Shown: piece by piece, positions 17,551-35,795 of the stretch
How the letters are laid out: each line of letters begins with the position of its first letter
Numbering within the stretch: the first letter of the stretch is position 1
DNA from: Rhodospirillales bacterium Ga0074136
GTDB taxonomy: Bacteria > Pseudomonadota > Alphaproteobacteria > Acetobacterales > Acetobacteraceae
NCBI GenBank assembly: GCA_001464375.1
Contig: LNEW01000217.1
Location: 1-38,131 of the forward strand
DNA length: 38,131 bases
Direction of reading: 5' to 3'
Notes under the pieces: generated by a model
Databases searched by the model: none
What the model saw: only the letters and a program-made list of their open reading frames with translations
Told to the model about the DNA's origin: nothing
Program-made: the position numbers and the translations under genes

Positions 17551-17641
17551 GGACAGGTGGCCGAGCGGTTGAAGGCGCGCGCCTGGAAAGTGCGTATACG
17601 TCAAAAGCGTATCGAGGGTTCGAATCCCTCCCTGTCCGCCA
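17551..17641 (+). tRNA. tRNA-Ser (anticodon GGA)
   Basis: A complete class II tRNA. The acceptor stem GGACAGG/CCTGTCC, D arm GCCGAGCGGTTGAAGGC, anticodon GGA at 17585-17587, a long variable arm and the T arm GAGGG-TTCGAAT-CCCTC are all present. The discriminator base is G at 17638 and the CCA end is encoded (17639-17641). It reads serine codons UCC and UCU. It marks the change from core chromosome to the accessory island, but I found no second copy of its 3' end in the window. Confidence 0.96.
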
Positions 17642-20037: not shown

Positions 20038-20040
20038 CGA

Positions 20041-21117
20041 TCAGGCTCCATCATGCCCTGAGGCCGCGGGACCGAAGCCACACTTCCCGTATGCCGTGAG
20101 GAGCCGGATCGTGTCGTAGCCATCGATAATCGTGAAACGCCTTGGATTGCCCATCTGCTGTGCGAACGCCCGCATCATCGTGCGAACGGCCGAAGTGACC
20201 TCGTGGCAATGCTGAAGGACAAGAAGCTCGGCCGGCTCGGTGAAGAGTCTCTGGATTTGATCGCCATTGCTTCCGAGCTCAGCCATCGTCATTGGCCTGA
20301 AGCTCGCGGGCCCCTTCAGGAGGAAGGCGGTGGATACCCGATTGTCGTCGATCGTAACCCTGCTGCTGAATAGGTCTGACGACTCGCCGCCCCAGTCTTT
20401 CGGGACGTTCGGCTCCCCCAGAATATTGGCGATCGCTTCCTTGATCTGCCGCTCTGGGACGGCCCTCAGACTGTCGAGAGCGGCCCGCGTCCGTGCGAGG
20501 GGAACCTCGGAAACACGCGCAAATGAGTCGATCTGGTCGATGTGGATTTCGAGATGGCTTGACCAGGCGCCGGAGCTCAAGATTTGCCCGCGAAGCTGGT
20601 TCTCAACCACATCAGCAAACAGGTACGGGATCGCCCGAATGCCTCCGTTCGCCACGTCCTGAATCACGCCCAGAAAGAACTTTCGCTTCTGCCCTGATAG
20701 CTCACCCCATGCTGACACCGACGTCAGGTGTTCTGGATAGTAGTCGCAGGTGACCTTCCCATTCGGCATCCAAGGATCGAGCTTGGAATAGGCGACTGGG
20801 ACCGGCGCGGACCGTCCACTTTGCCGAGCCGCATCGTACTTGTTCAGGCCCTTGAAGCCAAAGAGCCCGAGATGGGTGAATACCCTTCCGGCGTCGGCGG
20901 CACCCGTCGTGAGAAGCACGCCGAGGGGTGAGGGCTTGGCGGCCTGCATCCAGTCGATGGCGGCGTCCTTCAAGTCCCGCAGGCGCCGAAGCCGGTCCAG
21001 GTGAGGGTCGCGAGACGGTGACCCACCACCGCCGCAGTCGAGGGCCCCTGGCCCCACCAGTTCCATGATACGCCGGTCATTCAGGTACCAGCAGGTGAGG
21101 TCGTAGGGGACCGCCAT
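20041..21117 (-). CDS. Protein of unknown function in the restriction operon
   Basis: I do not recognise this 358-residue protein. It has no signal peptide or membrane segment. The N-terminal third contains GVLLTTGAADAGRVFTHLG; the centre has GKVTCDYYPEHLTSVSAWGE and a region rich in aromatic residues. The C-terminal third (about 240-345) looks like a compact alpha/beta domain with DWGGESSDLF, TAFLLKGPASFRPMT, NGDQIQRLF, ELLVLQHCHEV and FTIIDGYDTIRLLTAYGK. The D...FLLKG spacing recalls a degenerate PD-(D/E)XK core, but the acidic residue two before the lysine is missing. Its start shares one base with the methyltransferase stop (TGATG), and the helicase gene follows after 3 nt, so it must act with them. 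Confidence 0.8.
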   Translation of the reverse strand: MAVPYDLTCWYLNDRRIMELVGPGALDCGGGGSPSRDPHLDRLRRLRDLKDAAIDWMQAAKPSPLGVLLTTGAADAGRVFTHLGLFGFKGLNKYDAARQSGRSAPVPVAYSKLDPWMPNGKVTCDYYPEHLTSVSAWGELSGQKRKFFLGVIQDVANGGIRAIPYLFADVVENQLRGQILSSGAWSSHLEIHIDQIDSFARVSEVPLARTRAALDSLRAVPERQIKEAIANILGEPNVPKDWGGESSDLFSSRVTIDDNRVSTAFLLKGPASFRPMTMAELGSNGDQIQRLFTEPAELLVLQHCHEVTSAVRTMMRAFAQQMGNPRRFTIIDGYDTIRLLTAYGKCGFGPAASGHDGA

Positions 21118-24059
21118 CAGGCCACCGCGAACACCTTCATCACCTCATCCCCGAGGTGATTGATCACCTTCACTGCGATCCGCCCCTTGGCCGGCTTCGG
21201 GAAGGGGTAGGACACATCGCTGTTCAGGCTGCTCCACGCGGCCTCATCAACCTCGGCCTTCAGCGTCGTCTTCAGCGCCTTGTATGGGTCGTTCGCGCCG
21301 AGGAAGTAGGCGTGGCGGACGAAGAAGCTCTCCTCGTTGTAGTCGGTGTCGATCATCCAGAGCGCGATCTTGTCCGTGCCCTCGGACTCGACCTCGCCGG
21401 TCTGCGGCTTGAACACGTCCACGCCCTTGATGCGCACCCGCAGCTGCCCATCCTTCTGCGGCTCGATCTTGATGTCGGGCTCGCCGAAGATGACGAAGAG
21501 GTTGCCCTTGCCCGTCGCCTTCAGGTCCTGCGCCATGTGCAGGTCCGGGTTCATGCGGGCGCGCAGCACGCGCACGCGGCCGAGCCGGTCGAACTCAGCC
21601 GAGTGGGCGTCATAGGCGAAGGCACAGGCAATCAGTGCGTCGAAGCCAGCATCTGCCGCCTCGCGCGCTGCTGCCACCAGGTCGGGGCGTGTCAGCGTGC
21701 CGAATTCGGGGCCGATCAGGATGCCGGCGCGGCGTTCCTGCTCGCCTTCCATGTAGCGGCCCTCGGCGCAGATCAGCGTGCCGGGCCAACCGACCAGGCT
21801 GGTGAAGCGGATGTGGTCCGCCTTGTCGGCCTGCTGCACACCGGCGCTGCGCAGGTTCTCGATGATCATGGCGGCGAAGTCGTGCTTGATCGCCGCCTGC
21901 CCCTCCGCCATGCCCTTCGCGCCCTTGGGCCGCTGCGGGTCGATCAGCTCGTCGTTCCAGTCCACAGTCAGCGCGCGGTGGGGCGAGAGGCTTTCCACCG
22001 TGAAGGGGCCGGCGACGCGAATGCGCCCGCGGTCCTCATAGGGCTTGTCGTAGAGGAATTCGACATCGGCCTTGGCGGCGATCGAGGCGTCGATCTCCTT
22101 CTGCCGGGCGATACGCGCCTTCCACCACTCGGCGTGCAAGCGTGTGGGCTCCGCCGGCCAGGGATCGCGCGGCGCCTGCGGCAGGGTGGCGAGGGTGTAG
22201 CTGCGGCCGAGCTGCTTGTTGAGTTTTTGGAGATGCACCGCGGCCTCTGCGGGCTTGTCCTGGACGCGCCGAAGGTCTTCCCGGGTCTTGGCCGCCTCGG
22301 CGGGCCAGGGCTCCCCGGCCTCGCGCGGTATCTGCCATTCCTCCCAGGACTTGCCCAGCGCGGCGTTGAGCGCGGCGCGGAGCGGTTCCAGTACCGTCTG
22401 CGCCTGCTCCCAGATCACGTCTATCTCGGCGTTCTTGGCTACAGAGCTGAGCATGATGTGAGGAACACGCTCGTAGACGAAGCCGAGTCGCAGGCGGCCG
22501 GCCGTGGGCGCAGACTTCGGGGCCGTTCGCGTGACCTCGGCTTCCTTGCGCTGCCCCTCGGAGCTGTCAGCGAGGAGATAATAAGGATAGCGCGCGCCCA
22601 TCAGGCGCGATCGGGCAAGGGCAAGGGAGACGCGCGAGGTATCGATCGTGATCCAACGGCGCCCCCATTGCTCGGCAACGTAGGCGGTCGTGCCCGAACC
22701 GCATGTCGGATCGAGCACGAGATCACCAGGATCGGTTGCCATCAAGATACAGCGCTCAACAACCTTTGTTGCTGTTTGAACAACATAAATACGAGGGTCA
22801 GTGGAAGAGCCGCCCGTCCCTGTATCTCTCCAGCTATTTACGAGCGGAAATACAGGAAAGTCCTCCAAAAATCTTTTGTATTTCAATACGCGGCCAGATG
22901 ATATCACGCGATCTGCCATTGCAAGTCGCTGCACGCCCTGCTTGTGGGTTTTCCAGTGACTGCTCGCGCCAGGATGATGAGGCTTTCCAAATACTGTAAC
23001 AGTCGGATCTTCAGATCCCGCACCTTGAGAAACCATCGAATCTTGCCGGAAGACTAACGCGCCGTCTGGCATTGGGATGATCCCGCGTCGTTCATCGGGA
23101 TGCATGGTGCGTTCGCTGCCATTCGGTAGCCGTAGCCAAACGTATTCACCCGTACCCGCACCGCCGACTGTCTTTTCGTTATAGATCTGCCGAAACTTAG
23201 CAGAGGGCCGGCTTTTGGCGTACCACAGGATATGATCAGAGACGTTGGGGAGAAGTTCGCTCGCCTGCGCTGTCGTCTTTTGGAATATAACGGAGGACAC
23301 AAAGTTATCCTCTCCAAAAATTTCATCCAATAATGCGCGCACTCGGTGAACATTCTCGTCGCCAATCTGCACGAAAACGCTGCCGCTCTCGTGCAGCAGG
23401 TCGCGCGCGACCGTCAAACGGTCCCGCAGGTAGGTTAGGTAGGAGTGGATGCCGTCGCGCCAGGTGTCACGGAAGGCCCGGACTTGCTCCGGCTCGCGTG
23501 TCACCTGACTGCGGTCGCCGTCCTTAACGTCGCGGCTCGTCGTACTCCACTGGAAGTTGCTGTTGAACTTGATGCCGTAGGGCGGGTCGAAATAGATGCA
23601 CTGCACCTGCCCGCGCAGCCCCTCGCGTTCCGCCAGCGAGGCCATCACGCTCAGGCTGTCGCCCAGGATCATGCGGTTCGACCAGTGCTGGTCGTGCTGG
23701 TAGAACTCGGTCGCCGCCTCGGCGTCCTTCAGTCCGTTGAAGTCAGCGAAGAGGTCCGGCATCGCCTCCGCCGCCGGCTTCGCCTTGCTGCGCCGCTTGA
23801 TGTCTTCGATCAGCGCCTGCGGGTGCACCTTCTCCTGGATGTAGAGCGGCGGCGCCTGCACGATCAGGTCCGACCAGTCCTGCTCATCCTTGCCGCGCCA
23901 GACCAGTTGCGGGTCGAGGTCCCGGTTCCGCCGTTCATAGGCGAGCCGGATGGGCGACTTGTCCTCCGCCCGCATCACCGTCTCCAGCTCCGCGGTCGGG
24001 ATGTTGCGGCGCGTGGCGTCGTGCTTGAGCGAGGTGATTTCCAGGGGCTGCTTGGCCAT
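21117..24059 (-). CDS. Type III-like (beta-class) site-specific DNA methyltransferase
   Basis: The 980-residue protein has the amino-methyltransferase motif DPPY at about residues 158-161 and the AdoMet-binding DPTCGSGTT at about 450-458. This is the beta-class order (motif IV, recognition domain, motif I) used by type III Mod proteins. It probably methylates adenine-N6 or cytosine-N4 in a short asymmetric site. It is longer than usual Mod proteins (about 650): the last 450 residues form an extra region with no clear motif, including VDWNDELIDPQRPKGAKGM. The stretch between motifs IV and I, the target-recognition part, is markedly AT-rich (about 22740-23340). The ATG at 24059 lies 4 nt after the dinD-like stop; an upstream extension would overlap that gene. 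Confidence 0.9.
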   Translation of the reverse strand: MAKQPLEITSLKHDATRRNIPTAELETVMRAEDKSPIRLAYERRNRDLDPQLVWRGKDEQDWSDLIVQAPPLYIQEKVHPQALIEDIKRRSKAKPAAEAMPDLFADFNGLKDAEAATEFYQHDQHWSNRMILGDSLSVMASLAEREGLRGQVQCIYFDPPYGIKFNSNFQWSTTSRDVKDGDRSQVTREPEQVRAFRDTWRDGIHSYLTYLRDRLTVARDLLHESGSVFVQIGDENVHRVRALLDEIFGEDNFVSSVIFQKTTAQASELLPNVSDHILWYAKSRPSAKFRQIYNEKTVGGAGTGEYVWLRLPNGSERTMHPDERRGIIPMPDGALVFRQDSMVSQGAGSEDPTVTVFGKPHHPGASSHWKTHKQGVQRLAMADRVISSGRVLKYKRFLEDFPVFPLVNSWRDTGTGGSSTDPRIYVVQTATKVVERCILMATDPGDLVLDPTCGSGTTAYVAEQWGRRWITIDTSRVSLALARSRLMGARYPYYLLADSSEGQRKEAEVTRTAPKSAPTAGRLRLGFVYERVPHIMLSSVAKNAEIDVIWEQAQTVLEPLRAALNAALGKSWEEWQIPREAGEPWPAEAAKTREDLRRVQDKPAEAAVHLQKLNKQLGRSYTLATLPQAPRDPWPAEPTRLHAEWWKARIARQKEIDASIAAKADVEFLYDKPYEDRGRIRVAGPFTVESLSPHRALTVDWNDELIDPQRPKGAKGMAEGQAAIKHDFAAMIIENLRSAGVQQADKADHIRFTSLVGWPGTLICAEGRYMEGEQERRAGILIGPEFGTLTRPDLVAAAREAADAGFDALIACAFAYDAHSAEFDRLGRVRVLRARMNPDLHMAQDLKATGKGNLFVIFGEPDIKIEPQKDGQLRVRIKGVDVFKPQTGEVESEGTDKIALWMIDTDYNEESFFVRHAYFLGANDPYKALKTTLKAEVDEAAWSSLNSDVSYPFPKPAKGRIAVKVINHLGDEVMKVFAVA

Positions 24060-24063
24060 CGGG

Positions 24064-24906
24064 TCAGTCGTCCAGCCGCTTGGGCTTGCTTTGCGTCTTT
24101 CGCTCATCAGAGGCGAGGCGCCGCTCGACCTTCCTGATGTCCTCTGCGGGCGGAAGCGCCTCGGGGCGAATGCCGCGACCCAGCAGGGTGTTGCGCACAG
24201 CCTGATTGTTGGTCGTGTGTTCGGCCGCGATCCGCGCTTCGCTCGCCATGCCATGGGCGCGGGCGTTGAAGATGGTGATCTCGGTGGCGAAGTCCTTCGC
24301 CTTCAGGATGATGGTGGGCGCGAAATCCGCCAGCGGCCGGCTGTCCGGCACCTTCCATTGCGCCTTCATCGCCTGGGTAGACCGGCCGAACAGCGCCTGG
24401 TCGCCCTTGCTGCGGATCAGGGCGAAATCCTGGTTGCCGCCGGTCTGCTCATAGATCACGCGGGACAGGTCCTTCTCGGTGCTCGTCAGCTTGCGGCGCG
24501 CTGTCAGGCGTTCGGCTTCCAGGATCCGCTGCTCGATCAGTTCGGCGCGGCGCGTCTGGATCGCGAAGTAGGATTGCGCGAAGGCGATTTCCGGTTTGCT
24601 CGGGTCGCCATTCTGCGCCACCAGGTAGCAAGCGAAGCGGGTGAGCATGACGTCGTCGATCTCTCGCTGCGCGCCGGACCCGAGTTCGACCATTTTGCTG
24701 ACCTCAGCAAAATGGTCCGCCGGGTCGTGCTCCGAGACCTCACAGGCCGTCCGCGCCTTGCCCAGGACGTTCTGGAAATTGACCCAGTTCGCGTAACCGA
24801 GCAGCACCTGGAGGTCCCGTGCCAGCCAATACTCCACGCCGGAGTCGGTCTGCTGCGCATGGCCTTCGAATGTTTCAGTCAGCTGCAGGATGACTTGGCG
24901 GTCCAA
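24064..24906 (-). CDS. DinD-like DNA damage-inducible protein
   Basis: The 280-residue protein matches E. coli DinD in length and layout. It has a Bro-N-like N-terminal part, YWLARDLQVLLGYANWVNFQ, then MLTRFACYLVAQNGDPSKPE and AFAQSYFAIQTRR. The C-terminal half has LFGRSTQAMKAQWKV and DFATEITIFNARAHG. E. coli DinD is SOS-induced and inhibits RecA strand exchange. Here the gene lies between the Res-like and methyltransferase genes. The start is a TTG at 24906 with a GGAGA ribosome binding site about 8 nt upstream, 36 nt after the Res stop; the methyltransferase begins 4 nt after its stop. No SOS box is visible before it. A role in the restriction system is inferred only from position. Confidence 0.87.
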   Translation of the reverse strand: MDRQVILQLTETFEGHAQQTDSGVEYWLARDLQVLLGYANWVNFQNVLGKARTACEVSEHDPADHFAEVSKMVELGSGAQREIDDVMLTRFACYLVAQNGDPSKPEIAFAQSYFAIQTRRAELIEQRILEAERLTARRKLTSTEKDLSRVIYEQTGGNQDFALIRSKGDQALFGRSTQAMKAQWKVPDSRPLADFAPTIILKAKDFATEITIFNARAHGMASEARIAAEHTTNNQAVRNTLLGRGIRPEALPPAEDIRKVERRLASDERKTQSKPKRLDD

Positions 24907-24942: not shown

Positions 24943-27900
24943 TCAGACCAGCACCGATTCGTCCGCGAAGGCGGCGAGCAGCGAGGCGAACTCATCCTCC
25001 ATCTCATAGACCGCGGTGAACTCGGCGAACGCCCAGCGGCCATGGCTGCCGAGGTTGTTGACGCCCGGCACCCAGAAGGCGCGCATCGTGTTCGCCTTCT
25101 CCTTCGCATCCTCACCGCGATAGCCTTTCACCTCGACGATCAGGTTCAGCGGGTCATCGCGCCCGTCATCCACGCGCAGGATGAAGTCAGGCCGGTAGTG
25201 CCGGGACTGCGTGCCGAGCAGGTACGGCACTTCGAAGCCGAGGCCCTGGTTCTTCGCATAGGCCAGGACGCGCGGATGGTTCTCGGCCACGCGGCAGAAC
25301 TCGGCTTCCCAATCGCTGTCGCAGACGACCCAGTTGATGTGGCTGCGGTCGGGGCGTGCTTCCCACCGCGTCGCCTTGGAGGTGGTGAAGTTCACGAAGC
25401 GGGTCGAGCCGGTGGGGTTGTAGGGGTCCAGGATCGCCAGCACCGGCTTCTCGCCGACGAGTGACTCGGTGATGGCGTCCTTGATCTTGTTGGCCGCCAT
25501 CTCCGCCAGCTCCATGTAGAGGAGCTGCGCGGGGAACGTACCCCCGATGCAGCGAAGGTAGCCGCCATCGATCCATTGCCGGACGATGCGCTTCATCTGC
25601 CCGAAGAGATGCAGCTTCGGCTCCTCGCCTGTCTCGCGGTAGGTGCGGTAGAGCAGGTGCCGCGTCAGGTGAAAGAGCACCGTGGAGTCCCGCACCTCGT
25701 CCAGATGGTCGAGCGTGAGGTCCGCGGCTTCGCCGATGATGCCCTGGTTGCGCGTGCGGGTGGCGCCGACGAGCTCCGGCGTCAGCTCCAGCACATGGTC
25801 GGGCTTGAACTGTGCCTCCAGGCGCTGCTCGGGCAGTTCGACGCGGTAGCCCTCGACACGGGGGAAGGTGATCTCCAGCGCATCACGGTCCGGTCGCACG
25901 GCATGGACGCGCACCGTCTCCCGTGGCGGTGCTGGGGGCGCCACGACCGGCTTCGCGGTGAAGTCGAAGGGAATGCCGAGGATGTCGGCGTACTCGACGT
26001 TGAACAGGTCCTGGTCATTCAGCTCGTAGGACTGGCGCCGAAGGGCGCGGCCGACAACCTGCTCGCACAGAAGCTGCGTGCCGAAGGCGCGCACGCCGAG
26101 GATGTGCGTGACGGTGTTCGCGTCCCAACCCTCCGTCAGCATGGAGACGGACACCACGCATCGGACCTGCTCGCCCAACCGGCCAGGCTTGCCGACGGTA
26201 TTCATGACCTCGCGCAGCAGGGTGGCGTCGTCGATCGTCTCACCGGCGCGGATGTCACCGCTGCGCTCGACCATCTCCTTGCGGAAGCGCTCGATCTCAT
26301 CCGCGGCCATGGCGCGGAAGTCCTTGTCCAGCGCTTCGCCGGATTCGAGCTGCGCGCTGTCCACGAGGATGGTTTTGGGGCGGGCGAGGCGATTGCCGAA
26401 CTCATCGTAGTTGCGGAACAGCTCTAGCGCACCCTGTTGGAAGCTCGTGCCGCCCTCGGCATCGCTCAGCTCGTAGCCGGAGATGTAGCGGTAGATCAGC
26501 TCCGAGGTCGCGGTGTTGTTGCAGACGATGATGAAGACGGGCGGGATCCGTATCCCCTTTTCCTGCCAGAGGTCGTAAGTCTGCTTGTAGTGGCCATAGA
26601 GCGCCTGCAGCGCGGTGATGAGGTAGGTGGGCAGCTTCTGCGGATCGGCGGCCTGGCCGGTGCCGCGGCCCTTCTTGGGCATCGCCTTGCCGATGTGGTC
26701 CCAGAGGTTCCGGAACACCGGCATGGTGCCGTCATTCACGTTCGACGAGACGGGCACACGCGGCAGCTTTACGATGCCGCATTCAATCGCGTCCATCAGC
26801 GAGAAATCCGACATCGTCCACGGGAAGAGCGTGCCTTCGGCATAGCCGGAGCCGCGCAGGAAGAAGGGGGTCGCGGAGAGGTCGTAAACATTAGCGACGC
26901 CCAGCTTCCGCTTCACCGCTTCCAGGCCGCTGATCCACAAGCGCGCGGCCTCGTTGTTCTCCTTCGCCTCTTCCTTCTCGTCGCCTTTCAGATCGTCATC
27001 CTCGTCCGACACGCGCTCTCGGTAGCAGTGGTGCGCTTCGTCGTTCAGGACGACGATGTTCTTGAAGCCCATGAGGTCGGGCATCACGCGCTGGAGCATC
27101 TGCCCTTCGGTTTCGAGAGTCTGGAGCTTTTCCTCGCGCCAACCTTCGAGTGCAGAGCGCGTGCCCTTTGCGACGTCGATGCGCTCGCGCAGCTTGAAGG
27201 CGTGGTAGTTGGTGATGACGATCTTGGCGCGTGCGATGTCACCGAGCATGTCCTGCGGGACGATCTCGCGTTCCCGGAAGTAACTGTCGGGATCGTTGGG
27301 CTGCAGGACGCGCAGGCGATCCCGGATAGTGATGCCCGGCGCGACGATGAGGAAGCCGCGCGAGAAGGTCTTGCTGTTCGGCTGGCGGACCGCGTTGACC
27401 GTCTGCCACGCGATGAGCATGGCCATGACGGTGGTCTTGCCCGCCCCTGTCGCGAGCTTCAGCGCGATGCGCATCAGGTCAGGGTTGGCCTGCGCGTTGG
27501 CGCGCTTCAGGTGGTCAATGAACTTGCCGTATCGGGCTGCGCGCTTCGGATCTGAGGCGACCTCGGCAAGCCAGATGGCCGTCTCTACCGCCTCCACCTG
27601 ACAGAAGAAGGGGCGGACGCCCTGGAACTGGTGGTGACGCCAATGCTGGAGCAGGCGCGCTGTCTCTGGAGTGACGCCCCATTGGTCGGGGTTCGGCAAG
27701 TTCCGCCAGGTTTCGACGTAGCCGCGGACCTCGTTGATGATAGGGGTCGGATTGTACTCCTGCGTCGCGGAGGAGAGACCTCCAGAGTCTTGGAAGGTGA
27801 ACTGCGACTGGTCTTTGCCCTTGCCGCCCTTCCTACGCTTTGGCTTCGGTACCGGTGTGATCAGGTCCGACCGTCGGCGGGTCTCGACGATCCGGGAGGT

Positions 27901-27990
27901 TGGTTGCCCATCCGAGTCGAGTTCCCAGTGACGTGCCGGAGGCGCGTAGGGCGAATTGAGGATCGGGCGGCTGAAGAACTCCGAATCCAT
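24943..27990 (-). CDS. Res-like DEAD/DEAH helicase-nuclease, type III-like restriction subunit
   Basis: The 1015-residue protein combines a superfamily 2 helicase motor with a C-terminal nuclease. Helicase motifs are ATGAGKTT (about 180-187), LNDEAHHC (about 315-322), LSATPFF (about 371-377), SMLTEGWDANTVTHILG and EQVVGRALRR. Near the C-terminus PDFILRVDDG followed by LIVEVKGY is a PD-(D/E)XK nuclease core. From memory this resembles the set NCBI calls BPTD_3080 family restriction endonuclease. With the methyltransferase it would translocate on or cut DNA lacking the host's methylation. It starts the five-gene leftward operon. A GAACC/GGTTC inverted repeat lies 43 nt upstream of its ATG. Confidence 0.9.
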   Translation of the reverse strand: MDSEFFSRPILNSPYAPPARHWELDSDGQPTSRIVETRRRSDLITPVPKPKRRKGGKGKDQSQFTFQDSGGLSSATQEYNPTPIINEVRGYVETWRNLPNPDQWGVTPETARLLQHWRHHQFQGVRPFFCQVEAVETAIWLAEVASDPKRAARYGKFIDHLKRANAQANPDLMRIALKLATGAGKTTVMAMLIAWQTVNAVRQPNSKTFSRGFLIVAPGITIRDRLRVLQPNDPDSYFREREIVPQDMLGDIARAKIVITNYHAFKLRERIDVAKGTRSALEGWREEKLQTLETEGQMLQRVMPDLMGFKNIVVLNDEAHHCYRERVSDEDDDLKGDEKEEAKENNEAARLWISGLEAVKRKLGVANVYDLSATPFFLRGSGYAEGTLFPWTMSDFSLMDAIECGIVKLPRVPVSSNVNDGTMPVFRNLWDHIGKAMPKKGRGTGQAADPQKLPTYLITALQALYGHYKQTYDLWQEKGIRIPPVFIIVCNNTATSELIYRYISGYELSDAEGGTSFQQGALELFRNYDEFGNRLARPKTILVDSAQLESGEALDKDFRAMAADEIERFRKEMVERSGDIRAGETIDDATLLREVMNTVGKPGRLGEQVRCVVSVSMLTEGWDANTVTHILGVRAFGTQLLCEQVVGRALRRQSYELNDQDLFNVEYADILGIPFDFTAKPVVAPPAPPRETVRVHAVRPDRDALEITFPRVEGYRVELPEQRLEAQFKPDHVLELTPELVGATRTRNQGIIGEAADLTLDHLDEVRDSTVLFHLTRHLLYRTYRETGEEPKLHLFGQMKRIVRQWIDGGYLRCIGGTFPAQLLYMELAEMAANKIKDAITESLVGEKPVLAILDPYNPTGSTRFVNFTTSKATRWEARPDRSHINWVVCDSDWEAEFCRVAENHPRVLAYAKNQGLGFEVPYLLGTQSRHYRPDFILRVDDGRDDPLNLIVEVKGYRGEDAKEKANTMRAFWVPGVNNLGSHGRWAFAEFTAVYEMEDEFASLLAAFADESVLV

Positions 27991-28032
27991 GCCCGGCGCG
28001 GCCCCTAGGTTGCTTGAAATACATCTTTCCCG

Positions 28033-28045
28033 GAACCAGTGGTTC
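28033..28045. promoter_or_regulatory. Perfect inverted repeat upstream of the Res-like gene
   Basis: GAACC and GGTTC arms separated by 3 nt lie 43 nt before the start of the Res-like gene, in the only gap from which the five-gene operon could be transcribed on its own. It may be an operator; no dedicated control-protein gene is present. Confidence 0.3.
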
Positions 28046-28125
28046 GATCAAGCATGGCGAGCAACTTAGTGGCGAATTTCACAGCGCGTAATCAACAGAG
28101 CCGCTTGCCTTCGGGCTCGTGGGAC

Positions 28126-28204
28126 CACGTCCACCGGAAACGGCTCAATCAACCCCCTCAGGGTGGGCCTTCCGGCTGTTGGCTGATCGGCACCGCCTCC
28201 ACGT
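28126..28204 (-). pseudogene. Frameshifted remnant of a recombinase-associated small HTH gene
   Basis: On the minus strand this stretch encodes VEAVPISQQPEG and then, one base out of frame, LIEPFPVD. The intact gene at 33318-33704 has VEAILDGRQPEG and LIEPLPVEW at its C-terminus with the same spacing less one base. The DNA matches in 21 of 22 bases at 28131-28151 (plus-strand CCACCGGAAACGGCTCAATC) and in 11 of 11 at 28168-28178. The F in LIEPFPVD suggests it came from a different homologue, not a recent copy of the intact gene. It begins where the hsp70-like frame stops, so the hsp70-like gene and the relic are directly abutted. Confidence 0.75.
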
Positions 28205-29979
28205 CAGGTCTGCTCCTTGCCAACAAACCGCCCATCGTCGTCGCGCCGCCGGCGTCGCTCCACGTCCTTAATCTCGTCTGGCAGCGTAACCTCGGGCATG
28301 TCCACCGCGGGTAGGCTCAGGCCGACCGCCACCGCCAGGCGGTGCACCTCCGCGGCGCCGCACAGCACGTGATCAAGATTCTCGGGAGACGGCAGCCGCA
28401 TTAGGCGGACCCCGCCGCCGTCCTGGCTGTGACGCCGCAGCCAGGCGTCAAGGCTACCTGTGCTGGCCTGATGCACAGCCGACCGGGTGCCGCCGCCCAC
28501 AAAGAACACGGGCAGTCCCTGCACCCAGCGTTCGCTTTGCGGGTCTCGGTTCCGCTTGGTTCCCCAGATCACAGTTCGCTGTCGGCGGTCGAGATCCCAG
28601 CGGAAATAGTTCGCAAGCGGTGGATCATCCGCACAACCCTGCCAGACCTCAGCGCCGAGCATTGCCACCTCGGCCGCGAAGATGGGGCAGCGCGCCGCAC
28701 CATCGCGTCCCTTGAACAGGTTGAAAGTGCAGCAGTCCACCGTGCCGCCTCCTACGTCGACGATGGCGTAAAGGCCGTCATCCAGCATGGTGGAGTTGGC
28801 GAAGCCGGATACCGCCGCCGCGATCTCGGGGACAAGCGCGGCTTGCGCGCGCTCAAGCAGCCCTGTCTCACAGTTTGCCATCGCGGCCAGCGCTGCACGG
28901 GTAGCGGCGAGAGTTATAGCGGCGGGTTCGTCGATCAGCGACAGTGCGGCGGCGATACACCGCTCGTAGCGACGGCGGAGACCGCTATTGTTCAGTGAGG
29001 CGGCGGGGAAACCGAAATTGTAAGACCAAGTAATCCGCCCCCGCTGCATGAGCATGGCCCGTTCGGTTGCCAGCCAGCCCCGCGCCTGCCGGACCTGAAG
29101 CGCTAGAAACGCGCAGGCTGCTTCTTCAGCATTCGCCTGTGCGGCCATGGCCGTCATCACCGGGGCACGCGGGTTCGCCATCAAGCCTGCCTTCAGAGCG
29201 CAGGAAACGGCGGCGCCCGGCAGGGGTGCAAGAGAGAACGCACCATCAGACGCGAGCCAAAGCCGCGATGCCCAAAGATAAGGGTGTTCATCGGCCTGTG
29301 CGAAGGACGGCACAGGGACGGCATAAGCGGGTGAGCCCGCCTCGTAGGGCAAACGCGCGGCGATCTTCGTGCTGCTGGTACCGAAGTCCACGCCCAAGAC
29401 GATCTCGATCCCACGCCGGGTGGAAGCCGCTGGCGAGACAGGGGTCGCACCATTTGCGAGGCGCTTGTTGAGTTCGGCAACATCATCAGAAGTCGCGCGG
29501 CATGCCGAGGCTAGCTCGCGCGCGCGCTGCTCGATCTCCGCTGGTAATGCCTCGATCTTCGCGGCGAGCCTGCGCGCCTCAGCTTCCTTCTCGCTATCGC
29601 TCGGTGGACGCGGCGGGGCCATAGCGCTGGCCTGGATCGCCTGGCCGTTGAGCGAGGGCGTGGGCGGTCCCGCCGCCTGTGGACGCTTTGCATTTGCGCC
29701 GCCGGCAGTCGTCGCTGCCTTCGGTATCGCCGGATGAACGCTGCCGCTACTACCCGCCGGCCGAGCATGCCGGGCCTGAGCGACGGGCGATTGAGGGAAT
29801 AGAGTTTGGGGAGCGATCTGAGGTGTCGGCGCTGGGTGCCCCCCGGGCAAATCCTTGGTCGTAGACGAATCAGGTTGTCTTCCGCGCGAGTTCGCCAACT
29901 CAGGCTGTTGCGGCGCCCTGGGAGCCGAAGGCTCAGCGGACCTGAAGAGCCGCCCGATCCATCGCAAAAGCCCCGACAT
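28204..29979 (-). CDS. Hsp70/actin-fold ATPase with long N-terminal extension
   Basis: The 591-residue protein carries an Hsp70-type nucleotide-binding domain at its C-terminal side: phosphate-1 loop GVDFGTSSTK (about 196-205), phosphate-2 loop DVGGGTVDCC (about 408-417) and adenosine motif FFVGGGTRS (about 492-500). The usual Hsp70 substrate-binding domain after it is absent. Before it lie a short amphipathic start (MSGLLRWIGRLFRS), about 110 residues rich in proline, alanine and glutamine, and a helical, probably coiled-coil stretch (KEAEARRLAAKIEALPAEIE). No DnaJ or GrpE gene is nearby. It begins 58 nt after the SNF2-like gene and is probably its operon partner. Its stop codon lies at the edge of a gene remnant. 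Confidence 0.85.
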   Translation of the reverse strand: MSGLLRWIGRLFRSAEPSAPRAPQQPELANSRGRQPDSSTTKDLPGGHPAPTPQIAPQTLFPQSPVAQARHARPAGSSGSVHPAIPKAATTAGGANAKRPQAAGPPTPSLNGQAIQASAMAPPRPPSDSEKEAEARRLAAKIEALPAEIEQRARELASACRATSDDVAELNKRLANGATPVSPAASTRRGIEIVLGVDFGTSSTKIAARLPYEAGSPAYAVPVPSFAQADEHPYLWASRLWLASDGAFSLAPLPGAAVSCALKAGLMANPRAPVMTAMAAQANAEEAACAFLALQVRQARGWLATERAMLMQRGRITWSYNFGFPAASLNNSGLRRRYERCIAAALSLIDEPAAITLAATRAALAAMANCETGLLERAQAALVPEIAAAVSGFANSTMLDDGLYAIVDVGGGTVDCCTFNLFKGRDGAARCPIFAAEVAMLGAEVWQGCADDPPLANYFRWDLDRRQRTVIWGTKRNRDPQSERWVQGLPVFFVGGGTRSAVHQASTGSLDAWLRRHSQDGGGVRLMRLPSPENLDHVLCGAAEVHRLAVAVGLSLPAVDMPEVTLPDEIKDVERRRRRDDDGRFVGKEQT

Positions 29980-30037
29980 CTAGCTCAGCCCGCCGACTGT
30001 GTCGCACAACTGGCGACCGCTGTGGCGTCACTGGCGC

Positions 30038-33000
30038 TCATCGCACAACCTCGACAATCGCCACTGCCAGTTGCTCAGCCTGCGCGGTCTGCATTCGTCC
30101 ACGCTCAATCTCGGCACGCCGGATCGTCGCGCGCTCTTCCAAACGCTTAAGCTTCCCCTCATTGGCTGCCAGGATACCGGTGAGCCGGCGGGCGCGCGAG
30201 CTTCCGCTGTTGATCTCCCGCCGTTGACCATCAATGAGGGCCATGAGCCGCCCACGTTCCGCGCCGAGACGTTGTTCCAGTGTGCGCAACTGAATGGCTG
30301 CACGGTCGTCTTGTTCGGCCTTGCGCGTCGCCTTCTCCTGCAGGAAGCGCTCGGTCAGCCGTTCAAGGAGGTCGGACTCGCAGCGGTCTGCGAGGGCAGT
30401 GGTGTTGAGAAGGGCGTCAGCTTCGCTCCACAGAGTGCCGGCTTCTGCTGCAATTAGCAGGAGCCTCTCGGCATCGTCGTCCGCCAACGCAGTTCCGTCC
30501 GATAGAGCGAAGCCGCCATATACGATGCGCTCCTGCTCGACCTGACCACCGAAGCGGCAGAGCATTGCGAGGATCGTGTAGCGGCCGGGGGAGATGTTGG
30601 CCACAGCGCCAACTCGCTCCGAGCTGAGCCGCGCGGCGACCGCTGGTCGTAGCTTCGGAGCATCGGTCTCCGCGACCCGGGCCGCGACGAAGCGGACCAG
30701 AGGGTGTGTCTGTGTGATTGTCTCCACAGCACGAACGCGCCGCTGGCCTGCAATCGGGCGCCCGAACCGGCACACAAGCGATCCGGTCTCACGCTCGACT
30801 TTGCCACCTGTCGGCAGGCGGCTTGCCTGCAGCCAGTCCACGTAGGCGGCGCGAGCCTCAGAGGTTAGCCGAATCTCGTAGGTATCTTCGCGGTCGAGGT
30901 CGCGGATAGCGCTTCCAGGGTACAAGGCCGCAAGCGCGTCACTCAGGTAGCGTGCCAGGTCGCGAGCACCGATCCAGCGATGCATCTCATGCGCCGTATG
31001 AATCGAGCGGAGGACGTGATCGCCGTGGGCGATTAGCGCCGCTGCCTCGCCTTCCAACTCCTCTTCGAGCTTGAGGCGATTCTCAATCGCTTGGCTCGTC
31101 TGGTCGATCCGCTGCGATATTTGTTCGGGTGTTAGCGCCCCCATGAGCAGCTCTGGGGTCAGCTTTGCGATCTCCTCACCAAGCACGGCCTCGAAGCCGC
31201 CAAGGGCGCGTTCACAGATGCCCAATCGCTCGTAGAGGCGACGGTAGATTTCGTCGTCGATGGTGCCGCGGTGCATGAGGTTGATGACTGTGACAGCGTC
31301 GGCCGCTTGACCTAATCGGTCAACACGGCCGATCCGCTGTTCCACACGCATCGGATTCCAGGGCAGGTCATAATTGACTACCGTGCGGCAAAACTGGAGA
31401 TCAATGCCTTCGCTTCCCACCTCGGAAGACAGCAGAACCCTTAGCTCACGATTGGCCTCGAACCGCGAGATGGCAGCGTCCCGCTCCGTCGTGCCGCCAT
31501 GGATGGTCTCACACTGGATGCCGGCTTGCTCCAGGCGACGCGCCAAGTAGCGAAGCGTCGGTCGGAATGTCGAGAATACGACGGCCTTTTCTTCGGGATC
31601 CGACACGAAGAACTCACGCAGGACCTCGAGGAAGGTGGCAAACTTTGTGTCGTGCCGCTCCAGTTCCTTTCCAGACGGCAGGCTGGTGCAGATGCGAGCG
31701 AGGCGTTCTACGAGAGGTTTGAGGCCGATCTCTGACGTTGCGTCGACGTCGCCCTCCGCAGCGATGTCCTCATCCTCGGCCTCGGCGTCTACGATGTGTC
31801 GCCGCCAGTGGTCGACAGCCGCGGGCAGGCAAGAAGCGAGAAGTCTTTGCGGTGTGGCGAGCAGGAAGCCAGCGGGGACGTCGCGTCGCCAAGCATGCTG
31901 CTGCACCTCGGCCGTGATTGCGTCGTAAGCTTCGCGCTCTAGCGGAGACATCTCGGCCCGGTGCGCACTCACGCGCCGGACAACACGAAGCTCCTGGACA
32001 TCGCGGCGGCGCGTTCGGTTCACTGTGTTCGCAAGCAGGTTCGCCGCTTCGAGACGCCCGGCCAGGCGAGCACGCTCAGCCAGTGGAATTGGGTCTGGCA
32101 ATCGGCCCAGATCGCTGAGGAGAGTTGCAATTTGCTGCGTACCGGCGAGCAGCCGGTGCCGCGCGGCCTCTGACACCAGCGCGCGGATTTCACCGGACGG
32201 TCGTCCACGGAGTGCAGCTTCCCTTGCCTCGATCAGCGGGCGGTTGGCGTCCAAGATTTCGTCAAGCGCGGTCGGGTGTCGGAACGTCTCCGGGTCGATC
32301 AATGCCAGGAGTGAAAAAAGGTCGCGGCTCTTGAGGTGGATCGGCGTCGCTGACAAGAACACATGGTGCTGTGCTAACGGTCGGGCCAGCCGGCCGAGCA
32401 AATTGCTCTGGGTGTCAGGGTTGCGGAGGTGATGGGCCTCATCCACGACGAGCATGTCGAACACCGGCTCGTCGTCTGCGCGGTCGCGCATGAGCCTGGC
32501 AAGCTCCGCGGAGGCGCGCCCAAACATGGGGTCGGTCTCATCTTCCCATCGTGCCGGAGGCTTAAGGCCCTGCAGACTGCACACGGCGATGAAGCCTCGC
32601 GACCAGCGGTCGCGATCGCGCAAGAGAGCAAGGAGTTCGGCAGCTGATAACACGCGTGCATCGAGCCCAAACTTGCCGGAAAGCTCGGCTTCCCACTTAC
32701 TGCACAGGACTTTGGGACAAACAATGAGTGCCCGTCGATAGTCAAAGCGCGCGCGCAACTCTGTCCAGATGAGGCCTGCTTCGATCGTTTTGCCTAGGCC
32801 AACCTCGTCGGCGATGAGCAGGCTGCCGGTTGGCGACGACAACATCTTCAACACCGGCTTGAATTGGTGCGCATGGAAGTCTGTGTTCGTCGACTCCATG
32901 CTGTAAATCACGTCTGCGAGGCGACCGGTCAGCCGGATGTGTGCGAGGACCTGCCGAAGCCGGGCCGGCTCGCTGAACCTGCCGGAGCGCAAGAACTCGA

Positions 33001-33211
33001 TCGGCTCCTCGCTCGCAGTCGGGAGCGGTTCGAGTTGGTCGAGCGGGACGGTACTGACCCCAGATGGAAACTGGACCCGGCCGAAGGAGCGGCCGGCACG
33101 GACAACGACATCCTGGAACGCGCCAAAGCGCTGGGGATCGCCGATTAGCCGCACGAGCATTCCACGCACGAACACGTCGTTGTTCACATCAGATCCGGGC
33201 GCGTCAGACAT
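30038..33211 (-). CDS. SNF2/RapA-like helicase-family ATPase
   Basis: The 1057-residue protein is a superfamily 2 Snf2-type DNA translocase. The N-terminal 60 residues form a small beta-rich domain (VRGMLVRLIGDPQRFGAFQD onward), as in RapA-like proteins. Motif I is IADEVGLGKTIEAG (about 133-146), motif II VVDEAHHLRNP (about 255-265) and motif III FLSATPIHL. The C-terminal lobe has AVVFSTFRPTLRYLARRLEQ, GSEGIDLQFC and QRIGRVDRLGQ. A long charged coiled coil ends the protein. Its overall form resembles DrmD of DISARM, but no drmA, drmB or drmC genes are present. I use the ATG at 33211 (MSDAPGSDVNND); a TTG 12 codons upstream is possible. It is the first gene of the island's leftward series. Confidence 0.88.
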   Translation of the reverse strand: MSDAPGSDVNNDVFVRGMLVRLIGDPQRFGAFQDVVVRAGRSFGRVQFPSGVSTVPLDQLEPLPTASEEPIEFLRSGRFSEPARLRQVLAHIRLTGRLADVIYSMESTNTDFHAHQFKPVLKMLSSPTGSLLIADEVGLGKTIEAGLIWTELRARFDYRRALIVCPKVLCSKWEAELSGKFGLDARVLSAAELLALLRDRDRWSRGFIAVCSLQGLKPPARWEDETDPMFGRASAELARLMRDRADDEPVFDMLVVDEAHHLRNPDTQSNLLGRLARPLAQHHVFLSATPIHLKSRDLFSLLALIDPETFRHPTALDEILDANRPLIEAREAALRGRPSGEIRALVSEAARHRLLAGTQQIATLLSDLGRLPDPIPLAERARLAGRLEAANLLANTVNRTRRRDVQELRVVRRVSAHRAEMSPLEREAYDAITAEVQQHAWRRDVPAGFLLATPQRLLASCLPAAVDHWRRHIVDAEAEDEDIAAEGDVDATSEIGLKPLVERLARICTSLPSGKELERHDTKFATFLEVLREFFVSDPEEKAVVFSTFRPTLRYLARRLEQAGIQCETIHGGTTERDAAISRFEANRELRVLLSSEVGSEGIDLQFCRTVVNYDLPWNPMRVEQRIGRVDRLGQAADAVTVINLMHRGTIDDEIYRRLYERLGICERALGGFEAVLGEEIAKLTPELLMGALTPEQISQRIDQTSQAIENRLKLEEELEGEAAALIAHGDHVLRSIHTAHEMHRWIGARDLARYLSDALAALYPGSAIRDLDREDTYEIRLTSEARAAYVDWLQASRLPTGGKVERETGSLVCRFGRPIAGQRRVRAVETITQTHPLVRFVAARVAETDAPKLRPAVAARLSSERVGAVANISPGRYTILAMLCRFGGQVEQERIVYGGFALSDGTALADDDAERLLLIAAEAGTLWSEADALLNTTALADRCESDLLERLTERFLQEKATRKAEQDDRAAIQLRTLEQRLGAERGRLMALIDGQRREINSGSSRARRLTGILAANEGKLKRLEERATIRRAEIERGRMQTAQAEQLAVAIVEVVR

Positions 33212-33317
33212 GGCGCTATGATCGCCGAAACCGGCGCGGATCTGCAACTATTCGATTACTTGGGGCTTTTCTGGATGCCGGCCCGAAACCTCGAAGCTGA
33301 CATGGCGCCCGTCGGTA

Positions 33318-33704
33318 TCACGCGCCGACGTGCCCGGTCTGTGCTTCCCATTCCACCGGAAGCGGCTCAATCAGGATAGGCAGCGTCATTCCTTCCGGCT
33401 GCCGCCCGTCAAGGATCGCTTCGACGATTTCTGGGGACAGTAGCGTGAGACGCAATAGGCGCGAGACGTAGGACGAGTTGATCTTCTCGGCTGCCGCCAG
33501 CTCGCTGATCGTGGCGAAGCACCCGGTCTCCATCATCCGCCGCCACCGGAACGCCCGGGCCAGCGCCTTCACCAACGTGGTGTCCGCCGCCGAGGAGCCC
33601 CGGTTCGTGGCGGTCGCAGGCGAGATCATCAGCTTCCGCCCACCCCGCTGCTTCCGGACCGCCAGCGGCACTCGCACGGTCAGCATCTGCGCGGCGCCGG
33701 TCAC
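33318..33704 (-). CDS. Small HTH protein accompanying the serine recombinase
   Basis: The 128-residue protein has a ParB/KorB-like helix-turn-helix segment, ISELAAAEKINSSYVSRLLR (about residues 66-85), followed by LTLLSPEIVEAILDGRQPEG and a C-terminal LIEPLPVEW. Proteins of this form often follow large serine recombinases in alphaproteobacteria; I know no experimental function. A recombination directionality or DNA-binding role is a reasonable guess only. It starts with a GTG at 33704 overlapping the recombinase stop in a GTGA junction. A decayed homologue is found at 28126-28204. Confidence 0.8.
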   Translation of the reverse strand: MTGAAQMLTVRVPLAVRKQRGGRKLMISPATATNRGSSAADTTLVKALARAFRWRRMMETGCFATISELAAAEKINSSYVSRLLRLTLLSPEIVEAILDGRQPEGMTLPILIEPLPVEWEAQTGHVGA

Positions 33705-35053
33705 GCTGCGACCCTCGCCGCTTCGGCCGGCGGCGCCGCCAGGTCCCGCGCCAAGCTGGCCAGCCCCTCCAGCTTCAGCCGCACGTCGGCGCCGCCCTCC
33801 CCGACATCCACCCGGTCAACCAGCAGGCGGATGATGCGCGCCTGCTCTGCGGGGAAGAGTTCATCCCACAGCGGGTCGAGCCGCTCCAGCGCCAGCCGGG
33901 CCTCGTCCTCCGTCATATCTGGCGCCGAGGCCCGCGCCGCGCGCCAAGCACCCAGCACCACCTCCGGCTGGCGCAGCAGCCCCCGGACCTGGGCGATGAC
34001 CGCGCCCTCGATCTCCGCGGCGGAAATGCGCGCGATGGCCGGCCCGTCCGCGGCGCTGCCCTTCAGCACCGACTGGCTGACATAGTAGCGGTACTGCTGC
34101 CCGCGGCGCCCCCGCGCGTGGGTGGGCGACATGGCACGCCCGTCGCTGCCGAAGATCAGCCCGCGCAGCAGCGAAGGCGTCTGGCAGCGGGTGCGGTTGG
34201 CGCGTGTCTTCGGGCTGATCGCCAGCAGGGCGTGCGCCGCGTCCCACATCGCCCGCGGCACGATGGCGGCATGCTCGCCCGGATGCGACTTGCCCTTGTG
34301 CATCGCCTCGCCGAGATAGGTGCGGTTGCTCAGCACCCTGTACACGTCGCTCTTGGTGAAGGCGCGGCCGCGTTTCGTGGTGGCGCCCTCCGCCCGGAGC
34401 ATCGTGACGAGCTTCGTGCCGGATTCCGTCTCGACGAACCCCTCGAAGATACGCCGCACCAGCGCCGCCTCAGCCTCATTCACCAGCAGCTTGCGATCCT
34501 TGGCGTCGTAGCCGAGCGGCACGAAGCCGCCCATCCAGATCCCGCGCGCCCGCGACGCCGCGACCTTGTCGCGGATGCGCTCGCCGATCAATTCGCGCTC
34601 ATACTGGGCAAAGCTGAGCAGGACGTTCAGCGTCAGGCGGCCCATCGACGTCGTCGTGGAAAACGACTGAGTGACGGAAACAAAGGTCACGTTGTTCGCG
34701 TCGAACACCTCCACCAGCTTCGCGAAATCCATCAGCGCGCGCGACAACCGGTCAATTTTATAACAGACGATGACGTCGATGCGGCCGCGCTCGATGTCCG
34801 CCAGCATGCGCCGCAGCGCAGGCCGCTCCAGCGTGCCGCCGGACACGCCGCCATCATCGTAGCGGTCCGGCACCAGCACCCACCCCTCCGACCGCTGGCT
34901 GGTGATATAGGCCTCACACGCCGCGCGCTGGGCGTCGAGCGAGTTGAACTCCATGTCGAGCCCTTCCTCGCTCGACTTGCGCGTGTACACGGCGGCGCGG
35001 ATCTTCCTGACGGTGGCCGGCATGGCGGCGTCGGCGGTCGGCTTGCGCTTCAT
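33701..35053 (-). CDS. Large serine recombinase
   Basis: The 450-residue protein is a serine site-specific recombinase that would cut and rejoin DNA through a serine-DNA bond. The N-terminal resolvase domain has YTRKSSEEGLDMEFNSLDAQ with the catalytic serine near residue 27, VICYKIDRLSRALMDF and SFAQYERELIGERIRDKVAA. A recombinase domain (GYDAKDRKLLVNEAEAALVR, then YRVLSNRTYLGEAMHKGKSH) and a zinc-ribbon-like region follow; the latter is reduced in cysteines (one clear cysteine, in TRCQTP). At 450 residues it is shorter than typical phage integrases such as phiC31. It is chained by 4-nt overlaps to DUF2924 before it and the small HTH gene after it. Confidence 0.93.
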   Translation of the reverse strand: MKRKPTADAAMPATVRKIRAAVYTRKSSEEGLDMEFNSLDAQRAACEAYITSQRSEGWVLVPDRYDDGGVSGGTLERPALRRMLADIERGRIDVIVCYKIDRLSRALMDFAKLVEVFDANNVTFVSVTQSFSTTTSMGRLTLNVLLSFAQYERELIGERIRDKVAASRARGIWMGGFVPLGYDAKDRKLLVNEAEAALVRRIFEGFVETESGTKLVTMLRAEGATTKRGRAFTKSDVYRVLSNRTYLGEAMHKGKSHPGEHAAIVPRAMWDAAHALLAISPKTRANRTRCQTPSLLRGLIFGSDGRAMSPTHARGRRGQQYRYYVSQSVLKGSAADGPAIARISAAEIEGAVIAQVRGLLRQPEVVLGAWRAARASAPDMTEDEARLALERLDPLWDELFPAEQARIIRLLVDRVDVGEGGADVRLKLEGLASLARDLAAPPAEAARVAA

Positions 35054-35556
35054 GCCGTGCCTCTCCGGTTCTTCAGGCCAAAGAACAGCCAGCCATTCCA
35101 GCGCGTGCCGGTGATGGCGCGTGCGATGGAGGACAGCGACTGGTAGGGGCGGCCCTGATACTCGTAGCCGTCGTGCAGCACGGTGACGCTGTGCTCGACG
35201 CCCTGGTATTCGCGGATCAGCCGCGTGCCGGTGATCGGCTTGTCGTCGCCGCGGATGCGCCGCAGGACCGGATTGCCGCCGTCGAGTTGTTCACCCAGGG
35301 CCTCGAGGCGCTGGATCGTCTCGGGCTTCAGGCCGCCATAGGCGAGCTCTTGTATGCGGTAAGCGAGCCGGCTTTCCAGGAAGCGCCGATTGTAGGGCGG
35401 CGGCTCGGCGGCAAAGAGTTCCCGCCATTGCTGCTTGAGGTCCGGCGTGGGCGCAGTTTTCAGGGCGGCGAGCCGGCCGAGCACGTCGGCCTGCGGGATG
35501 GCGGGTATAGTCGCCGTGGGCGGGGTGCCGCGTTTGGGTTTGGGGGCGCGTGTCAT
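35050..35556 (-). CDS. DUF2924 family protein
   Basis: The 168-residue protein has the DUF2924 pattern: LESRLAYRIQELAYGGL, GTRLIREYQGVEHSVTVL, DGYEYQGRPYQSLSSIARAI and TGTRWNGWLFFGL. Such genes regularly lie just before serine recombinase genes in alphaproteobacteria, which implies a role in the same recombination process; the biochemical role is unknown. The C-terminal part resembles small beta-rich domains seen in other mobile-element proteins. The ATG at 35556 overlaps the stop of the 67-residue gene, and its own stop overlaps the recombinase ATG, both in ATGA junctions. Confidence 0.88.
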   Translation of the reverse strand: MTRAPKPKRGTPPTATIPAIPQADVLGRLAALKTAPTPDLKQQWRELFAAEPPPYNRRFLESRLAYRIQELAYGGLKPETIQRLEALGEQLDGGNPVLRRIRGDDKPITGTRLIREYQGVEHSVTVLHDGYEYQGRPYQSLSSIARAITGTRWNGWLFFGLKNRRGTA

Positions 35557-35756: not shown

Positions 35757-35795
35757 CCCGTGACAATACGAATCGCCAGCGGTTTGGGGAGTGCG

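Follow-up and report, generated by a model that had tools for sequence, protein, structure and literature searches.

SNF2-family motors translocate on double-stranded DNA, and RapA is an RNA polymerase recycling ATPase of this family. Hsp70 nucleotide-binding domains act as ATP-driven conformational switches, and Hsp70 and actin belong to one superfamily. Tiamat, a one-gene system, is an experimentally verified anti-phage protein. Hsp70-like domains are reported from GTPase-centred conflict systems (PMC7159879), CnuD and Hsp70-McrB fusions bring an Hsp70-like ATPase into the predicted defence system CoCoNuT (PMC11090510), MORC/paraMORC GHKL ATPases are encoded beside SF2/SNF2 helicases in restriction-modification (R-M) operons, often with methyltransferases (PMC2292703), and SWI/SNF- and INO80-family motors bind actin and actin-related proteins (Arps), which regulate RSC (PMC5969521). 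The main text of two recent surveys of related systems contains no word starting with "hsp" (PMC12458937, PMC12839542). Here, we analyzed a 38,131-nucleotide stretch of the Rhodospirillales bacterium Ga0074136 (contig LNEW01000217.1, positions 1 to 38,131; the window), in which a SNF2/RapA-like helicase gene lies next to a gene for an Hsp70-like ATPase. A first-pass annotation of the window knew of no defined system made of these two proteins alone, and we likewise found no paper on the pair in the open-access literature, which leaves most subscription papers outside.

The helicase/translocase, 1,057 amino acids (aa) long and matching Pfam SNF2-rel_dom and Helicase_C, is encoded on the minus strand at 30038..33211, with a possible alternative TTG start at 33247. 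The Hsp70-like ATPase (591 aa) is encoded on the same strand at 28204..29979, after an intergenic gap of 58 nt (29980..30037). Both open reading frames (ORFs) are intact and carry all the motifs quoted in the first-pass annotation, namely, DEVGLGKT, DEAH, and SATP in the helicase and GVDFGTSSTK, DVGGGTVD, and VGGGTRS in the Hsp70-like protein. As detailed below, the pairing of the two genes is near-obligate and co-inherited, and the pair is almost certainly a real functional unit.

The pairing was surveyed from the helicase side with an alignment seeded with six sequences, five of them already known as paired, which was run against a species-genome collection. Of 496 relatives, we inspected the 80 most similar to the window helicase, which are thus not a random sample. 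In 71 of these 80, an Hsp70-like ORF adjoined the helicase in the same orientation, no more than 200 nt away (67 downstream, 4 upstream). The spacing in these 71 pairs ranged from overlaps to a gap of 109 nt and was exactly -4 nt in 19. The pairs were spread over 11 named phyla, including an archaeal one; some phyla were represented by a single metagenome contig, and 3 pairs had no named phylum. Several loci outside the 71 (loci are given L numbers where needed) were damaged or incomplete: the neighbor was present in L012 and L037 with its ORF broken in two, the helicase ORF was broken beside an Hsp70-like neighbor in L079, the contig ended at the locus in L024 and L082, and in L054 the helicase was truncated and an Hsp70 remnant lay displaced from it. 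L066, L088, and L089 had no Hsp70-like neighbor, L089 having a sacsin-type neighbor instead. Reversed gene order was seen in cyanobacterial pairs (L006, L050, L051, L053, and L069).

On plasmids (10 helicase records in all, of which all but the two from Rhizobium were inspected), the six records with at least 80% coverage, two of which were near copies from Sphingobium, all had an Hsp70-like neighbor, once in reversed order, while the plasmid loci L009 and L010 had none. The idea that any SNF2 helicase pairs with an Hsp70 fold was ruled out by 74 low-scoring SNF2 loci in viral contigs (at most 285 bits on the family profile), which had neither an Hsp70-like nor a sacsin-type partner. Since 71 of 80 relatives were paired, compared to 0 of these 74 other SNF2 loci and 0 of 6 loci with the DISARM helicase DrmD in the sequence covered, the association goes beyond chance. 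We also considered a phage-borne pair; a phage collection gave no match to the window's protein, and one viral-contig locus (L150) has the pair.

The association was equally evident from the Hsp70 side. A profile of the Hsp70-like family was run over 888 genomes, 398 from the window's own phylum, 198 from the phylum of a Treponema locus, and 292 from that of a Phormidesmis locus, the latter two sets being centered on known carriers. Matches at an E value of at most 1e-15 were found in 5, 3, and 7 genomes, respectively, some of which were already among our loci (the own genome, L081, L029, L073, L068, and L051). Thirteen of these 15 matches adjoined a full helicase (5/5, 3/3, and 5/7), two adjoined a motor-degenerate relative, and none stood alone, although a lone copy could have escaped because scoring in the phylum searches was limited to the 3 to 7 top first-look candidates per genome. 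One further match, in genome G482 (E = 7e-9), resembles an ordinary DnaK by length and was left out of the count. In 26 genomes that gave rise to loci, the Hsp70-like family was present as a single copy, in one genome as two pieces. With 71 of 80 helicases and 13 of 15 Hsp70-like genes next to their partner, the possibility allowed for in the first-pass annotation, that the two genes are rarely adjacent elsewhere, did not materialize.

The two proteins also share their history. For 71 intact pairs, a set that includes plasmid loci and is not identical to the 71 adjacent loci above, the helicase and Hsp70-like distance matrices correlated with r = 0.91, compared to at most 0.14 in 1000 permutations. 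Well-supported splits of the helicase tree recurred in the Hsp70 tree in 42 of 52 cases, and 38 of 42 splits of the Hsp70 tree recurred in that of the helicase. When neighboring ORFs were clustered over 86 loci, several of which are short contigs, the helicase family was found in 86 and the Hsp70-like family in 80, the next most frequent being a WYL regulator family in 8. A fixed operon of three or more genes was therefore ruled out, as no third family occurred in more than 8 of the 86 loci.

At E = 0.01, none of the Pfam, NCBIfam, or PADLOC models matched the Hsp70-like protein, and Pfam HSP70 (PF00012) matched neither the window protein at that threshold nor four of its relatives at E = 1. 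When a profile of the family was compared with solved structures, the best matches were BiP/DnaK (E = 6e-7). The structure model (predicted local distance difference test [pLDDT] score of 81) comprises about 100 disordered residues forming an N-terminal arm, two helices, and one well-predicted nucleotide-binding domain, mostly of high pLDDT, at residues 190 to 575 (28255..29412, minus strand). All 50 matches listed by Foldseek for this model were Hsp70-family proteins, with E values of 3e-9 to 2e-7 and modest TM-scores of 0.28 to 0.54. Together, the model and the profile comparison point to an Hsp70-type nucleotide-binding fold. Within the family (n = 53), K263, E385, and D408 were present in all sequences and T413 in 52; we take these to correspond to K70, E171, D194, and T199 of DnaK. 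BiP has the E, D, and T at the aligned positions, and the K was assigned from spacing only.

Because just 79 to 115 residues follow the last nucleotide-binding motif in 52 of the 53 sequences, the substrate-binding domain of Hsp70 chaperones is absent from this family. Two alternative short C-terminal motifs, of SKD/GKE type and DELY type, end 37 of the 53 sequences, as counted with patterns drawn up after the tails had been inspected; in the window, the tail lies at 28204-28240. These motifs may perhaps be docking tails. A membrane anchor formed by an N-terminal helix was also considered; the feature was variable, and such an anchor is at most putative. In L051, the Hsp70-like protein is extended at its N terminus by a long segment that gave weak matches of coiled-coil type.

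RapA was the nearest solved structure to the helicase both by sequence (E = 4e-28) and by fold (E = 1e-32), yet the helicase scored only 156.7 bits against the RapA equivalog cut-off of 576. In its structure model (pLDDT 84), a small N-terminal barrel is followed by the motor and by a long C-terminal helical hairpin with a terminal strand. The barrel has five strands (residues 19 to 62; 33026..33157, minus strand, from the secondary structure of the model), and we read it as SH3/Tudor-like by analogy to RapA/BrxHII (PMC12839542). The hairpin occupies residues 937 to 1039 (30095..30403, minus strand), with predicted helices at 937 to 1001 and 1007 to 1039 and the last strand at 1042 to 1056. 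An Sth1-Arp7-Arp9 entry was found at rank 28 among the fold matches of the model.

In PADLOC, the best model for the helicase was DrmD (PDLC02623, 822 bits, nearly full length), and the pair lies inside DISARM-type operons in L047, L052, and L058, where it is placed between the restriction enzyme and DrmA in a run of DrmMI-, restriction endonuclease-, DrmA-, DrmB-, and DrmC-like genes. Each of these labels comes from a scan of a single member (L052 for DrmMI, restriction endonuclease, DrmA, and DrmC, L047 for DrmB, and L058 for DrmD) and was extended to the others by clustering. DrmA- and DrmB-like genes also occur near the pair in L027, on the opposite strand. The helicase could, on this evidence, be DrmD and the pair a leftover or part of DISARM. 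However, it scored 430 bits with the NCBIfam model DISARM_DrmD, below the cut-off of 610, and the six helicases above that cut-off formed a clade of their own, separated from 83 paired helicases and 8 unpaired rows by a branch with a Shimodaira-Hasegawa-like approximate likelihood ratio test value of 100. The tree was built with a quick method and no mixture model, L079 and L082 were omitted as too short, and a few rows are the same locus from two collections. None of the six true DrmD loci had an Hsp70-like ORF in the 5- to 6-kb stretches covered, which include flanks of about 0.5 to 1.5 kb on either side. Moreover, a separate true DrmD (PDLC02621, 1535 bits) is encoded beside the pair in L058.

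The first-pass annotation had also stated that drmA, drmB, and drmC are missing. For the first two, this holds beyond the window, as neither the DrmA model PDLC02567 nor the DrmB (DUF1998) model PDLC02584, each one of several such models, had a match in the own genome (93% complete). For the phospholipase D-type nuclease DrmC, it holds for the eight window proteins scanned, for which no match was displayed, the genome not having been searched for DrmC. The window methyltransferase fits the type III model PDLC03632 rather than DrmMI or DrmMII, and the best 25 of 50 families included none of the Drm models. A decayed DISARM system was therefore ruled out by the DrmD score below the cut-off, the separate clade, the lack of an Hsp70-like ORF in the covered stretches of the six true DrmD loci, the DrmA/DrmB negatives in the own genome, and the separate DrmD of L058; the first-pass annotation had named such a remnant as a finding that would refute its proposal. 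Membership of DISARM, as stated above, is contradicted already and very improbable, and the PADLOC label DrmD is likely a mislabeling of this helicase.

We next consider what the pair might do. The 78 proteins flanking 20 pairs matched 197 PADLOC models (E ≤ 1e-20), compared to 1 for 80 control proteins from 20 stretches picked arbitrarily in these genomes; these numbers count models and not genes, and a single gene may match dozens, the neighbors are longer than the controls (mean of about 635 versus 507 aa), and 1 of 79 neighbors was dropped for a size limit. By labels assigned via cluster representatives, the pair lies beside Hma genes (L060, L061, L065, and L038), type I R-M genes (L072, L076, L083, and others), PglX-like methyltransferases (L015 and L041), DruE-like plus UvrD-like genes (L030, L044, and L046), and McrBC/RecB-like genes (L003, L026, and L081). 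The proposal in the first-pass annotation that the two genes are a defence module is supported, its context now being backed by a control, while defence itself remains inferred.

We consider it somewhat probable (about 0.58) that the two genes form a mobile defence module working as follows. The SNF2/RapA-like protein would be a double-strand DNA translocase, and the Hsp70-fold protein its dedicated ATP-driven regulatory subunit and not a general chaperone. ATP binding and hydrolysis in the Hsp70 fold would act as a switch for the motor itself, or for its assembly on DNA and with neighboring systems. The motor would track unmodified invading DNA and strip or remodel bound material, with the outcome that replication or transcription is blocked or that the DNA is delivered to the nuclease of a co-encoded system, here Res/Mod. 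The pair might act by itself or supplement R-M, Hma, DISARM-like, or Druantia-like systems. A regulatory subunit is suggested because the pairing is near-obligate, the ATPase site is intact, no substrate-binding domain is present, and another ATPase takes the partner's place in the loci described below, whereas invading DNA is proposed as the target from context only. A physical complex, the direction of regulation, the DNA target, and the anti-phage activity are all presumed here.

Several observations weigh against this proposal. The pair is rare (5/398, 3/198, and 7/292 genomes in the three sets), and both types of partner are missing from L088 and from L066, a member of the paired clade. 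Context alone is no proof that the pair defends, because defence genes cluster anyway. In two cyanobacterial loci (L245:4999-8364 and L246:4642-7848), the Hsp70-like gene stands beside a helicase relative of only 501 or 544 aa, which in L245 matches profile positions 3 to 90 and 725 to 926 only, leaving the bulk of the motor unmatched. These relatives are either decayed or repurposed, and since their motors are degenerate, the idea that driving translocation is the sole job of the Hsp70-like protein is weakened; it may have a role beyond the motor, and it could act on phage proteins instead.

In that last case, the Hsp70-like protein would sense or disassemble a phage protein or complex while the SNF2 motor clears the DNA, so that the pair would be a chaperone-based sensor. 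The retained Hsp70 catalytic residues would fit this, as would the Hsp90/sacsin-type, Tiamat-like alternative partner and the recurrence of chaperone-fold ATPases in prokaryotic conflict systems (PMC7159879 and PMC11090510). Such a sensor is nonetheless rather unlikely, given that the protein has no substrate-binding domain and that, any third family being confined to at most 8 of 86 loci, there is no recurring dedicated co-chaperone (DnaJ and GrpE were not searched by name). A closer tie to R-M could also be envisaged, with the pair as an accessory of the adjacent R-M genes only and the translocase replacing or helping the Res motor. Of 54 assessable pairs (54 of 85 loci were long enough, with ORFs called mechanically), 35 indeed have a same-strand neighbor within 150 nt, often from methyltransferase-bearing systems, and the Res/Mod genes come next on the same strand in the window; but the neighbors vary by locus, the other 19 pairs have no such close neighbor, and Res carries its own ResIII motor (Pfam), making an R-M-only accessory distinctly improbable.

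A role outside defence, in plasmid or element maintenance, in RapA-like transcription recycling, or in DNA repair, with the genes hitch-hiking in defence islands, would suit the RapA-like structure, the presence of the pair on plasmids and, in the window, near a serine recombinase, as well as the motor-degenerate forms in two cyanobacterial genomes. The RapA model score far below its cut-off (157 versus 576 bits), the rare and scattered distribution, and the strong excess of defence neighbors speak against it, and we regard such a role as quite improbable. If the pair is indeed the defence module proposed above, it would add a two-gene system from eleven named phyla whose second protein matches none of the Pfam, NCBIfam, and PADLOC families at E = 0.01, and it suggests that several large, seemingly unrelated systems (type I and III R-M, Hma, DISARM, and Druantia-like) draw on a single portable SNF2 unit. 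Cloning and testing are feasible for both genes, given their short length.

The alternative partner came to light in the deepest sub-branch of the paired clade. Among its 11 rows, 6 helicases had an Hsp70-like partner, 1 (L088) had neither type, and 4 (L009, L010, L089, and L114/L149) were beside a sacsin/GHKL (Hsp90-type) protein. The sacsin/GHKL genes lie directly downstream of the related SNF2 helicase at L009:10362-13466, L010:9989-13330, L149:6583-9702, and L089:12921-18917, and the first three products match Tiamat TmtA. On viral contigs, six helicases scored 459 to 535 bits on the family profile; one had an Hsp70-like partner, four had a sacsin-type protein directly downstream, and the sixth had a sacsin-type ORF on the opposite strand. 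All five sacsin-type proteins scanned matched TmtA models (best E values of 7e-51 to 2e-98). It is possible that the helicase and the sacsin/GHKL protein form a second two-gene module, and these loci suggest that immune SNF2 motors are governed by chaperone-fold ATPases of two folds.

In the window, the pair is surrounded by further genes on the minus strand. The restriction genes and serine recombinase reported beside it were confirmed by profile matches. Downstream lie a Res-type restriction enzyme of the BPTD_3080 family (24943..27990; NF046055, 1351.6 bits against a cut-off of 800) and a Mod-type N6/N4 DNA methyltransferase of 1,045 aa (21117..24254; PDLC03632, 1331 bits, and PF01555), which make the neighbors, as distinct from the pair, a type III-like R-M system. 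Between them, and overlapping the start of Mod, is a gene for a 280-aa PDC-S13-like protein (24064..24906; PDLC04919, 375.7 bits, and PDLC03083, 157.5 bits), which also resembles a type I specificity subunit. Further on are a 358-aa protein with no family match at E = 0.01 (20041..21117) and a 687-aa UvrD-like helicase (17974..20037; PF00580/PF13361, with partial matches to PADLOC GajB models), whose family is also found beside the DruE-like genes of L030, L044, and L046, with L069 also listed. On the other side of the pair are a 128-aa protein with weak ParB similarity (33318..33704; TIGR00180, E = 9e-4, below the cut-off) and a 450-aa large serine recombinase (33701..35053; PF00239 and PF07508). 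By neighbor clustering, the small ParB-like protein recurs near the pair in L007 and L064, and the recombinase with a companion gene recurs in L007 and L011 (window region 33318-35766); perhaps these genes are the pair's mobilizing element.

Across 17522-35741, the window runs collinear to a Roseomonas sp. HF4 contig, with 92 to 93% identity, indicating an island common to the two genomes. Collinearity ends at 17522, beside a tRNA-Ser(GGA) gene on the plus strand (17551..17641) at the island edge. No 14-mer repeat of the 3' end of tRNA-Ser that could serve as an att copy was found in the window. The sole part of the island without nucleotide similarity to Roseomonas sp. HF4 is 22760-23344, inside the methyltransferase gene, which looks like a swapped target-recognition domain.

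Compared to the described systems, the window helicase is like DISARM DrmD in being a RapA-like SNF2 helicase of methyltransferase-bearing defence operons, labeled DrmD by PDLC02623, and differs from it by its separate clade, a score under the NCBIfam cut-off, and an Hsp70-like partner unseen at the six true DrmD loci. RapA is its best solved structure by sequence and fold, but the helicase fails the RapA model, is rare, and is partnered with an Hsp70 fold. The partner, in turn, shares fold and catalytic residues with Hsp70 chaperones while it lacks their substrate-binding domain and fails Pfam HSP70. CnuD and the Hsp70-McrB fusions of CoCoNuT have both nucleotide- and substrate-binding domains (PMC11090510); their Walker-A-like motifs are degenerate, and their partner is an McrB GTPase. 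The window protein has the nucleotide-binding domain only, conserved catalytic residues, and an SNF2 partner, and no McrB-type Pfam match was found among 10 window proteins. As in MORC systems, a second ATPase is encoded beside an SNF2 helicase. The MORC ATPase has a GHKL and not an Hsp70 fold and accompanies several helicase families, yet some relatives of the window helicase adjoin a GHKL (sacsin-type) protein. The neighbors of this type that were scanned match Tiamat TmtA, whereas the window partner is of Hsp70 type with no TmtA match.

In the SNF2-actin/Arp remodelers, too, an SNF2 motor has its own dedicated subunit from the actin/Hsp70 superfamily, and they differ from the window pair in that the latter is prokaryotic, has Hsp70 and not actin as its nearest fold, and shows no HSA domain. 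In the model, the C-terminal hairpin of the helicase is only a candidate site for binding of an Arp-like subunit. As a conjecture that we hold to be doubtful, the pair could be a prokaryotic counterpart of the SNF2-actin/Arp module, i.e., a motor needing an actin/Hsp70-superfamily subunit that serves many defence systems as a transplantable unit of power and control, with Hsp70- and Hsp90-type regulators interchangeable. If this were true, immune motors and eukaryotic chromatin remodelers would share the control of SNF2 motors by chaperone-fold ATPases, through either descent or convergence.

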